NCBI GenBank assembly: GCA_012515985.1
Contig: JAAYXJ010000212.1
Coordinates: 1-42,864 of the forward strand
Reading direction: 5' to 3'
Origin: Gammaproteobacteria bacterium
Lineage (GTDB): Bacteria; Pseudomonadota; Gammaproteobacteria; Xanthomonadales; Xanthomonadaceae
DNA length: 42,864 nucleotides
Below the pieces are notes generated by a model. The model did not search any database, was not told the DNA's origin, and was given only the letters and a program-made list of their open reading frames with translations. Shown piece after piece: positions 12,311-19,364 of this stretch. Made by a program: the position numbers and the translations under genes. Each line of letters starts with the position of its first letter. Within the stretch, counting starts at the first letter, position 1.

Positions 12311-15838
<3,528 letters not shown>

Positions 15839-15874: not shown

Positions 15875-18226
15875 CTAGTCCTCGCCTCCACCGGCGTGCT
15901 CATCGAGCACCGGCTGCACCCGCTCGTCCCAGAACTTGCGCACCGCCTTCGTAAGCGCCTCGCGGCCGGCATCGTTGACGATCACCGCGTCCGCGATCTC
16001 CCGGTGTTCGGCGTCCGAAGGCTGGGCGTCCATCCGCTCCCAGGCCTCTTCGCGGGTCATGCCGCGCACGTTGACCAGCCGCTCCACGCGCACCTCGGCG
16101 GGCGCCTCCACCACCAGCACCAGGTCCAGCCCGGCCCGCGGCTGGTCGGTCTCCGCCAGCATCGGCATGTCGGCCACCACCACCGCGTCCGGACCGGCCT
16201 GTGCTGCAAGCCGCGAGAACTCGGCGCGCACGCGCGGGTGGATGATCTGGTTGAGCCGGGCCCGCGCGGTATCGTTGCCCGAAACCAGCCTGCCCAGTGC
16301 GGCGCGGTCGACGTTCCCGCCGGGGGCGATCACCTCATCGCCGAACAGCTCCCTGATCTCCGCGACCGCGTCGGTGCCCGGACCGATCAGACGTGCGACC
16401 AGTTCGTCGGCGCTGATCACCACCGCCCCAAGCGCTCGCAGGTCCTCGGCCGCAAGCGTACGGCCGGAACCGATCCCCCCCGTCAGCCCGATGGTCAGCA
16501 ATGCCGCGCTGTCGCGAAGTTGCCGGCCCAGGCGGGTGGCCGGGGGATGGGTGTCGTGCTCGGGCTCCGTGCCCGGCTCGTACTCGGGCCGGATCACGTA
16601 CTCGGCCATGTCGTGCTCGTCCTCGCGGGCCCGGCGCCTGTACTCCTCCACCGGCAGCACCTGCTTCCACTGCCGGGTGCGCAGCGGCTTGAGGGTCCCC
16701 GCATCCTCGCGCAGCGCGCGCAGCAGCAGCAGGCACAGGCCCATCACCAGCAGCATCACCGGCGCACCGATGACGATGATGACCTCCTGCAGCGCGGCCA
16801 GACCGTGTTCGCCCGAGGTGACCAGGATCACTGCGCACACCACCCCCACCGACATCGCCCACAGCACCCGCTGCCGCTTCGGCCCCACGTCCCCGTGCCC
16901 CGACGCGAGGTTGTCGAGCACCAGCGCGCCGGAGTCCAGCGATGTCACGAAGAAGATGGTGATCACCACCAGCGCCAGCACCGCGGTGAAGCCGTAGAAC
17001 GGAAACGACTGCAGGAACTGGAACAGCGCCGCTTCCACATTGCCGTTGGTGACGATGGTTTGGGTGAGGCTGCCGGCGGTCTCCGGCGCCCGGTCGATCC
17101 GGAACGCGCTGAAGCCCCAGGTACCCATCCAGATGATGACGAAGGCCGTCGGCAGGCCGATCGACGCGGTGACGAACTCGCGGATTGAGCGGCCGCGCGA
17201 GATGCGGGCGATGAACAGCCCCACGAAGGGCGACCAGGTGACGGTCCACGCGTAGTAGAAGACGGTCCAGTCCCCCGACCACCGGCCGCCACCAAAGGAA
17301 TCGTTGAAGAACGAGAGCGCCGGGAGGTGCGACATGTACGCGCCGGCCGACTCCACGATGGCGCGGATGGTATCCATGCTTGCGCCCCACATGAGCACGA
17401 ACAGCATCAGGGCCACGGTGAGCACGATGTTGAGGTAGGACAGCCGCTTGACGCCCTGGTCCAGGCCGGCCAGCGCCGACGCCAGCGCGAGCGCCGTGAT
17501 CACCGCGATGATCCCCGCCTGCAGCCAGCCGTTCATGGGAACACCCATGACGTAGTTCATGCCGGCGTTGATCTGCATCGCGCCAAGGCCCACCGACACC
17601 GCCAGCCCGAACACCGTGGCCACCACGCAGGTGATGTCCACCGCCCTGCCCCAGGGGCCGTGGATGCCCTCGCCGATCAGCGGCTGCAGCGCCGACGACA
17701 CCCGCGGCGGCAGCCGGCGCTTGTAGGTGAAGTAGCCGAAGCACATGCCCGGGATCACCAGCAGGGCCCACATGTGGATGCCGAAGTGGAAGTTGGCGAT
17801 CGCCAGCGCCTGCATCGCCGCCATGTCGGTGGCGGGCTCGGTACCGTAGAGCGGCGGATTGGCGTAATGGTTCATGGGCTCGGCCACGCCCCAGAACATC
17901 AGCACGGCGCCCACCCCGGCGGCGAACAGCATGCCGAACCAGGCCACCCCGGAAAATTCAGGCTTGGCATCGTCCTGCCCGAGCTTCGCCCGCCCGTAGC
18001 GGCTGGCCGCCAGCCCGAACGCGAACAGGACCAGCGCGGTCGTCCCCAGGGTGTACATCCAGCCCAGCTCGTAGCGCAGCCAGCTGGCCACCACGCCGAA
18101 CGCGCTCTGGACGGGGCCGGGGAACAGGGACATCGCGGCTGCGAACGCGGCGATGATCAACAGTGAAATGAAGAACGTCGCGGGGCCGGTGCGAAGGCCG
18201 AGGAAATCGTGCAGCCGGGTCAGCAT
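15875..18226 (-). CDS. BCCT-family transporter fused in frame to a C-terminal CoaE (dephospho-CoA kinase)-like domain
   Basis: One uninterrupted frame. BCCT signatures FAAGVGAVLMFWGVAEP and YYAWTVTWSPFVGLFIARISRGRSIREF, then LTIGLTGGIGSGRTLAAEDLRALGAVVISADELVARLIGPG...HPRVRAEF...IADAVIVNDAG at 15875-16498. Confidence 0.9.
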   Translation of the reverse strand: MLTRLHDFLGLRTGPATFFISLLIIAAFAAAMSLFPGPVQSAFGVVASWLRYELGWMYTLGTTALVLFAFGLAASRYGRAKLGQDDAKPEFSGVAWFGMLFAAGVGAVLMFWGVAEPMNHYANPPLYGTEPATDMAAMQALAIANFHFGIHMWALLVIPGMCFGYFTYKRRLPPRVSSALQPLIGEGIHGPWGRAVDITCVVATVFGLAVSVGLGAMQINAGMNYVMGVPMNGWLQAGIIAVITALALASALAGLDQGVKRLSYLNIVLTVALMLFVLMWGASMDTIRAIVESAGAYMSHLPALSFFNDSFGGGRWSGDWTVFYYAWTVTWSPFVGLFIARISRGRSIREFVTASIGLPTAFVIIWMGTWGFSAFRIDRAPETAGSLTQTIVTNGNVEAALFQFLQSFPFYGFTAVLALVVITIFFVTSLDSGALVLDNLASGHGDVGPKRQRVLWAMSVGVVCAVILVTSGEHGLAALQEVIIVIGAPVMLLVMGLCLLLLRALREDAGTLKPLRTRQWKQVLPVEEYRRRAREDEHDMAEYVIRPEYEPGTEPEHDTHPPATRLGRQLRDSAALLTIGLTGGIGSGRTLAAEDLRALGAVVISADELVARLIGPGTDAVAEIRELFGDEVIAPGGNVDRAALGRLVSGNDTARARLNQIIHPRVRAEFSRLAAQAGPDAVVVADMPMLAETDQPRAGLDLVLVVEAPAEVRVERLVNVRGMTREEAWERMDAQPSDAEHREIADAVIVNDAGREALTKAVRKFWDERVQPVLDEHAGGGED

Positions 18227-18404: not shown

Positions 18405-19364
18405 ATGAATCCGAATTACCTCGATTTCGAACAGCCCATCGCCGATCTTGAGGCGAAGATCCACGACCTGCGCCAGGCCAGCACCGGCCCCGGGGTCAAC
18501 ATCGACGCCGAGCTGCGCACCCTGCAGGACAAGCTGCGCCGGCGCACCGCGCAGATCTTCCGCGACCTCACCCCCTGGCAGGTGGCCCAGCTGGCGCGCC
18601 ATCCCGCACGCCCGTACACCAGCGACTACATCCGGGTGATGTGCGACGAGTTCGAAGAGCTGGCGGGCGACCGCGCGTTTGCCGACGACCCGGCGATCAT
18701 CGGCGGCCTGGGGCGCATCAACGGCCGCAGCGTGATGATCATCGGCCATGAGAAGGGCCGCGACACCCGCTCCAAGGTTCGCCGCAACTTCGGCATGCCG
18801 CGCCCGGAGGGCTACCGCAAGGCGCTGCGGCTGATGAAGATGGCCGAGCGCTTCGGCCTGCCGCTGCTGACCTTCATTGACACCCCGGGCGCGTACCCCG
18901 GCATTGGCGCCGAGGAGCGCGGCCAGTCCGAGGCCATTGCGCGCAACCTGATGGAGATGGCCGAGCTGAAGATCCCGGTGCTGTGCACCGTGATCGGCGA
19001 GGGAGGCTCGGGCGGCGCGCTGGCGATCGGCGTGGGCGACCGGACCCTGATGCTTGAGTACAGCACCTATTCCGTGATCTCCCCGGAAGGCTGCGCCTCG
19101 ATCCTGTGGAAGGATGCGGACAAGAAGCGCGATGCCGCCGAACAGCTGGGGCTGACCGCCAAGCGCCTGGTCGAACTGGGCCTGGTGGACAAGCTGGTGC
19201 GTGAGCCGATCGGCGGCGCCCACCGCAACCCCACCCAGACCGCGATCCGGCTCAAGGCGGTGCTGCTCAACCAGCTCGACGAACTGGAGGCAATGCCCCC
19301 GGCCCAGCTGGTGGAACGGCGCTACCAGCGCCTGCGGGGCTACGGCGCCTACGAATCCGGCTGA
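18405..19364 (+). CDS. accA: Acetyl-CoA carboxylase carboxyltransferase subunit alpha
   Basis: [73 protein letters not shown]. Confidence 0.97.

Follow-up and report, generated by a model that had tools for sequence, protein, structure and literature searches.

A BCCT transporter with a C-terminal CoaE-derived domain of putative regulatory function in a gammaproteobacterial genus and in Micrococcales

The window (the whole 42,864-nucleotide stretch of gammaproteobacterial DNA analysed here, contig JAAYXJ010000212.1) harbors a gene whose product joins a BCCT transporter to a complete dephospho-CoA kinase (CoaE) fold. The product is proposed to belong to a single-origin family in which a duplicated CoaE became attached to the BCCT C terminus, and which was acquired horizontally in the present lineage; its CoaE-derived domain would no longer make CoA but would bind a phosphorylated ligand and tune solute uptake, a reading to which we assign a probability of approximately 0.55. 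The fusion is real, has a single origin and is without description in the literature searched: BCCT proteins bearing a C-terminal extension are known, while the presence of a repurposed CoaE at that position appears to be new. In the first-pass annotation of the sequence, this domain pairing was not known to be a described family. A literature search, thin in its coverage of subscription journals, returned no paper on a BCCT-dephospho-CoA kinase pairing.

Architecture, integrity and distribution of the fusion gene

A minus-strand frame of 847 codons stays open from plus-strand position 18415 until its stop at 15875. The start of the fusion is the ATG at 18226, which agrees with the conserved N terminus of its homologues (MLxRLHDxLGLRT), and the 783-aa protein encoded at 18226 to 15878 comprises a full BCCT transporter followed by the C-terminal tail native to it and by an entire CoaE fold. 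Pfam assigns BCCT to aa 18 to 508 (E 5.5e-161) and CoaE to aa 578 to 754 (E 6.9e-43), with no other domain. The open reading frame, the Pfam assignments and the full-length homologues thus bear out the original observation that both parts lie in one minus-strand frame. The relevant features are as follows.

15875 to 18226, minus strand: BCCT::CoaE fusion gene, 783 aa plus stop, from the ATG at 18226 to a TAG ending at 15875 (single frame, Pfam, full-length homologues with the same start)
16703 to 18175, minus strand: BCCT transporter domain, aa 18 to 508, 12-TM LeuT-like fold (PF02028, E 5.5e-161; AF2 model versus TmaT 8zxk, TMt 0.95, 38% identity)
16556 to 16693, minus strand: transporter C-terminal tail, aa 512 to 557, PxRTRQWKxVLPxEEYxRRA...RPEYEPGTEPEH (common to unfused relatives)
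16508 to 16555, minus strand: variable linker, aa 558 to 573 (low model confidence, pLDDT < 50 at aa 557 to 566; variable in the alignment)
15878 to 16507, minus strand: CoaE-like domain, aa 574 to 783 (PF01121, E 6.9e-43; AF2 pLDDT 95.8; changes at R589 and S605; fused-specific W729/D733)
16457 to 16480, minus strand: P-loop GGIGSGRT, aa 583 to 590, with Arg589 in place of the Walker-A Lys (all 82 free CoaEs with a resolved P-loop have Lys)
16406 to 16414, minus strand: S605-A606-D607, equivalent to the DXD motif of CoaE (first Asp gone, catalytic Asp retained)
16028 to 16042, minus strand: fused-specific lid signature W729-x3-D733 (fused domains: W in 36/36, W plus D in 35/36; free CoaEs: both together in 0/84)
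12311 to 15838, plus strand: dnaE, left neighbour and host backbone gene (ORF; 75 to 290 bp separate it from accA in 22 fusion-free congeners)
18405 to 19364, plus strand: accA, right neighbour, divergent to the fusion (ORF; found in 52/52 genomes of the genus)

The segment joining the two domains, originally described as a charged linker, turned out to be mostly ordinary BCCT tail (PxRTRQWKxVLPxEEYxRRA...RPEYExGTEPE). The core of this tail is invariant in all 31 fused proteins and is also present in the four nearest unfused homologues, which end some residues beyond it without a CoaE domain. A specially evolved linker is consequently ruled out, the true linker being confined to approximately aa 558 to 573. 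Modelling of the full protein with AF2 (67 sequences; pLDDT 86.3, pTM 0.67), a check which the first-pass annotation had proposed, yielded a BCCT fold and a CoaE domain, the placement of the latter relative to the membrane part being uncertain (pTM 0.67, linker pLDDT < 50). The CoaE domain alone gave a clean fold (AF2 pLDDT 95.8), for which the first 30 Foldseek matches were dephospho-CoA kinases or CoA synthase, with E values down to 9e-17.

The same full-length fusion occupies the dnaE/accA site in two complete, single-contig congeners, G127 and G118, whose homologues share 99% (residues 1 to 781) and 83% (residues 1 to 779) identity, respectively, with the window protein. A sequencing or assembly error at the junction, raised at the outset as a potential explanation of the uninterrupted frame, is excluded by these two genomes together with the Micrococcales homologues. 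Although the assembly containing the window is 73.8% complete and comprises 281 contigs, the occurrence of the same full-length frame at this site in two single-contig genomes, and in Micrococcales isolates, reduces to a negligible probability the notion that an artefact masks a stop between two genes; a chimeric contig is refuted by the site shared between the two complete genomes.

Within the genus of the window, 3 of 52 genomes carry the fusion, and it was found in no other genome of the 100-genome family sample or of the 387-genome class sample. A contig scan led to carriers in the Actinomycetota, namely Micrococcus terreus, Dermacoccus abyssi and several species of Kocuria. Scored by full-length coverage, the fusion was present in 25 of the 199 Micrococcaceae genomes examined, in 7 of 396 from the order and in 2 of the 399 sampled from the phylum, with more than 25 Micrococcales species represented. 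Plasmid carriage was rejected, there being no plasmid record with 80% coverage of the fused protein. The fused gene is frameshifted in two draft Kocuria genomes, those of K. atrinae and K. marina KCTC 9943 (L072, 5001 to 7323, and L075, 6726 to 7333), reflecting either sequencing error or decay.

Locus order and evolutionary origin

The 35 fused sequences in the BCCT tree form one clade (SH-aLRT 100), inside which the three sequences from the genus of the window are placed among the Micrococcaceae, where they and L247 to L250 and L252 make up a group of eight (support 99). The CoaE tree unites 36 fused domains (96) and groups the free CoaEs from Micrococcaceae relatives with these (98), with a partly open backbone. 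These trees indicate that the fusion arose once, in the Micrococcales (Actinomycetota), at an rpsA-coaE-uvrB locus where a BCCT gene stood beside coaE, and the placement of the window's lineage points to horizontal acquisition of the fusion, now held between dnaE and accA. Because the dnaE-accA gap measures just 75 to 290 bp in the 22 congeners without the fusion, its presence there is regarded as an insertion. A different stretch of 0.85 to 1.0 kb lies at the dnaE-accA junction of two further congeners (L290 and L296), and this junction may be a repeated insertion point.

The locus order in the Micrococcaceae is rpsA - BCCT::CoaE - coaE - uvrB. Near unfused relatives display either rpsA - coaE - BCCT - uvrB or, in Kocuria palustris and G640, rpsA - BCCT - coaE - BCCT - uvrB, while G629 has an unfused BCCT gene followed by a fused one, and G157 and G578 each harbor two tandem fusions. 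No coaE gene adjoins the fusion in G265, G403, G414 or the genus of the window. The simplest account of these arrangements is that a BCCT gene beside the housekeeping coaE would have been followed by local duplication and one in-frame fusion, and then by transfer to other genomic backgrounds, the order of the intermediate steps being inferred.

Several of these loci have further peculiarities. Tandem BCCT::CoaE pairs followed by a free coaE and uvrB (L069, 178 to 5786; L268, from G578) represent repeated local amplification at the rpsA-uvrB locus. In K. palustris (L073, 5001 to 6722 and 7566 to 10031) and G640 (L267), the unfused BCCT protein ends near the point where CoaE is joined in others, and a free coaE and a second BCCT gene follow, the product of the latter being just 48% identical to that of the window. 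This layout is possibly a pre-fusion state or possibly the outcome of secondary domain loss; the gap of about 830 bp after the unfused K. palustris gene has no CoaE similarity, and a fused-CoaE remnant at that position was accordingly rejected. In G265, a serine recombinase gene (L183, 5459 to 7042) lies upstream of the dispersed fusion at a distance of approximately 3 kb and may be tied to its mobility.

The transporter and the CoaE-derived domain

Membership of the BCCT family is evident from the profile scores (PF02028, 536.8 bits, cut-off 27; TIGR00842, 472.9 bits, cut-off 407.55) and from the 12-TM LeuT-like fold of the solved BCCTs (Foldseek TMt of 0.95 to TmaT and about 0.9 to BetP, with BetT also matched). 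Residues F425, T428 and S429, which we take from BetP to belong to the Na2 site, are invariant, and by this analogy the transporter is likely to be Na+ coupled. TmaT W151, W325 and W329 are conserved in the window protein, and the third Gly of GXGXG is replaced by V108. Of the quaternary-ammonium aromatic box (TmaT W146, Y154, W326 and W329), just W329 is kept (as W331), the other positions being occupied by F148, L156 and T328; F148 and T328 are present in 31/31 fused proteins. Conservation of TmaT W146, Y154 and W326 is restricted to transporters of quaternary-ammonium compounds (PMC11708041). The NF047988 score (461 bits), considered for membership of the glycine betaine and quaternary-ammonium BCCTs, falls below the cut-off of 650. 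The altered box and V108 mean, therefore, that glycine betaine, choline and carnitine are not first-guess substrates, and the pocket argues against a quaternary-ammonium substrate. The initial designation of the protein as a BCCT osmolyte transporter holds as regards the family; the term osmolyte is rendered insecure by the three altered aromatic-box positions.

As a fold and homology family, CoaE is readily recognized in the fused domain (PF01121, 146.9 bits; TIGR00152, 103.1 bits, cut-off 65.55). Its catalytic condition was assessed on a set of seven residues, K14, D30, D32, R66, P113, R140 and Q159, numbered after the Mycobacterium paratuberculosis structure 6n39. All seven are present in each of the 82 free CoaEs with a resolved P-loop and in 6 of the 36 fused domains; the remaining 30 have lost at least one and retain two to five. 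The clade of the window lacks both the Walker-A Lys, replaced by Arg (K14R; in the window, L059 and L060), and the DXD pair, whose first Asp is replaced by Ser (D30S). It retains the general base together with R66, P113, R140 and Q159 (D607, R641, P688, R716 and Q735 in the window, equivalent to D32, R66, P113, R140 and Q159), several of which are lost in most other fused clades. The earlier description of a complete CoaE layout is thus accurate for the fold and has to be qualified by two active-site changes in the window copy, Arg589 and Ser605.

Losses differ between lineages: the fused domains of G265, G403 and G414 combine K14A/T with Q159R, that of Micrococcus terreus has lost R66, P113 and Q159 while its P-loop Lys is intact, and most Kocuria domains have also lost D32. 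Several Kocuria have changes in the P-loop as well as in DXD, and ligand binding may be lost in these. Given that the nearest actinobacterial relatives of the window clade in the BCCT tree possess all seven residues, K14R and D30S most likely arose on the branch of the window clade itself. The role of the Walker-A Lys is that of P-loop kinases in general, and the K-to-R replacement need not remove all activity; K14 and D30 are the only two of the seven residues which differ in the window clade. Residues G8, G13, R80, P89 and R140 are invariant in 36/36 fused domains, and W153 (36/36) and D157 (35/36) form a lid pair present in 35 of 36 fused domains and in none of 84 free CoaEs. In the Mycobacterium tuberculosis enzyme, Asp32 is the general base, Arg80 is among the residues contacting phosphates in a docked model, and CTP is bound, by docking at the dephospho-CoA site (PMC2765170).

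Pairwise NG86 dN/dS, a crude measure here in view of divergence and high G+C, was 0.07 to 0.26 for fused CoaE (ten pairs), 0.10 to 0.42 for free CoaE (same or related pairs) and 0.03 to 0.15 for the BCCT part. The values for fused and free CoaE being close, the domain is about as constrained as the free enzyme, even without catalytic residues; it evolves faster than the BCCT part. A free CoaE was also present in all 16 fusion-bearing relative genomes searched whole (G118, G127 and 14 Actinomycetota), and the fusion as sole cellular CoaE is rejected in each. The small genomes G265, G403 and G414, considered as sole-CoaE cases for want of an adjacent coaE, each have a free copy elsewhere; that of G414 (L182) has a very long branch (1.64) and an odd composition. 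No free CoaE was found in the window's own assembly, which is 73.8% complete, and we take this absence to reflect incompleteness.

Proposed role and alternative explanations

The fused domain is probably a CoaE-derived pseudokinase acting as a cytosolic ligand-binding regulator, and the pattern of catalytic losses with retention of R80, R140 and the P-loop glycines fits a ligand-binding, mostly non-catalytic, sensor-like domain. Because the domain follows the transporter into hosts which have their own CoaE, it is believed to act with the transporter. Purifying selection, joint travel with the transporter and the retention of free CoaE elsewhere therefore favour a role in transport over one in CoA synthesis, and they lend support to the original suggestion that the BCCT transporter bears a cytosolic domain; the sensing of nucleotide or CoA and the gating of transport, also suggested there, are putative.

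The events leading to this state comprise, in steps supported by sequence comparison, the gain of a BCCT gene by the rpsA-coaE-uvrB locus of the Micrococcales, a single in-frame joining of a CoaE copy behind the transporter tail with retention of the free coaE, the repeated loss of catalytic residues from the fused copy under purifying selection with a conserved W...D lid signature, and movement of the entire fusion to other lineages, including the gammaproteobacterial genus of the window. Functionally, the domain is envisaged to have ceased making CoA while still binding a phosphorylated ligand (ATP/ADP, dephospho-CoA/CoA or CTP) near the kept P-loop glycines, R80 and R140. Binding would shift the C-terminal tail at the cytosolic face of the BCCT trimer, turning uptake up or down and thereby joining it to the energy or CoA state of the cell. 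Against this reading, deletion of the domain may turn out to leave transport unchanged. BCCT C termini are believed to be important in osmosensing (PMC7876524), and CoaE is able to bind a nucleotide, CTP, that it does not consume (PMC2765170); ligand-dependent control via the C-terminal tail is the most likely role, with a structural role in the trimer as its main rival. The more far-reaching proposal, of a new transporter family which arose by duplication of an essential enzyme of CoA synthesis, its single fusion to a BCCT transporter and its conversion to a nucleotide- or CoA-sensing pseudokinase gating uptake, and which then spread between phyla as a unit, is advanced tentatively, with somewhat less than even odds.

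In the structural alternative, the domain is an assembly or stability module whose CoaE-CoaE contacts stabilize the transporter trimer, ligand binding being incidental or lost. The closest solved BCCT, TmaT, forms a homotrimer (PMC11708041), several CoaE PDB entries contain three chains (1n3b, 1t3h, 2if2 and 1uf9), and catalytic and substrate residues have been lost while the fold and the new W...D signature persist. Three crystal chains are, however, no proof of a trimer, a scaffold would have no need of the P-loop glycines, R80 and R140 kept in 36/36 domains, and the unfused relatives manage without the domain, leaving this alternative with a minor, though appreciable, share of the probability. 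A bifunctional protein, still active as a dephospho-CoA kinase at the membrane in at least some lineages, is unlikely: the loss of at least one residue invariant in free CoaEs from 30 of the 36 domains, the constant retention of free CoaE and the missing Walker-A Lys of the window copy weigh against it, even though the six Micrococcaceae fusions with all seven residues, in which catalysis may persist, the one such fusion tested, which passes the NCBIfam CoaE equivalog cut-off, and the five residues retained by the window clade speak in its favour.

A marginally less probable alternative holds that the domain is an inert, drifting and tolerated leftover of read-through between neighbouring genes. 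BCCT and coaE were indeed neighbours beforehand, the fused CoaE evolves faster than the transporter part and the gene is frameshifted in the two draft Kocuria genomes, but dN/dS lies far under 1 and is similar to the values for free CoaE, both the fold and the signature persist in different phyla, and the domain was not lost when the gene moved to new hosts and sites. Ligand-dependent regulation remains the preferred reading; if true, it would tie solute uptake directly to nucleotide or CoA state, with the staged series of relatives providing natural controls.

The fusion resembles several known systems in part. With BetP, BetT (8ybr) and TmaT (8zxk), BCCT transporters which have regulatory tails or domains at the C terminus, it shares the 12-TM BCCT fold, the conserved F425/T428/S429 and a cytosolic C-terminal extension; unlike theirs, its extension bears a whole CoaE-derived domain, and its aromatic box and GXGXG motif are altered. 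With free CoaE (Escherichia coli 1n3b, Burkholderia 4i1v and M. paratuberculosis 6n39) it has in common the full fold, the P-loop and DXD regions and the lid arginine, whereas the fused form is membrane tethered, carries W...D in its lid, lacks the Walker-A Lys and first DXD Asp in the window clade, and is never the sole CoaE in the relative genomes checked. The actinobacterial CoaE-UPF0157 protein (PRK03333), in which CoaE also occurs as part of a fusion, gives the fused domain its strongest NCBIfam match (201.5 bits against a cut-off of 215); there, in contrast, CoaE is N-terminal and active, with UPF0157 aiding its folding (PMC2765170), while here CoaE lies C-terminal to a transporter. The CBS-domain sensor subunits of the OpuC/ProU ABC osmolyte importers likewise possess C-terminal cytosolic domains linked to osmosensing (PMC7876524), but they belong to another transporter class and have an unrelated fold, and the analogy is one of principle only.

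Unfused neighbours, fusions with an intact site and fusions with a lost site all occur in living relatives, in which a housekeeping enzyme appears to be caught in stages of becoming a transporter domain. The six fusions which combine all seven catalytic residues with an adjacent free coaE (L243, L247 to L250 and L252) are natural candidates for an active membrane-tethered CoaE. Proteins of this kind can pass TIGR00152 and constitute an annotation hazard, as EC 2.7.1.24 could be assigned to the window copy despite its lost Walker-A Lys.
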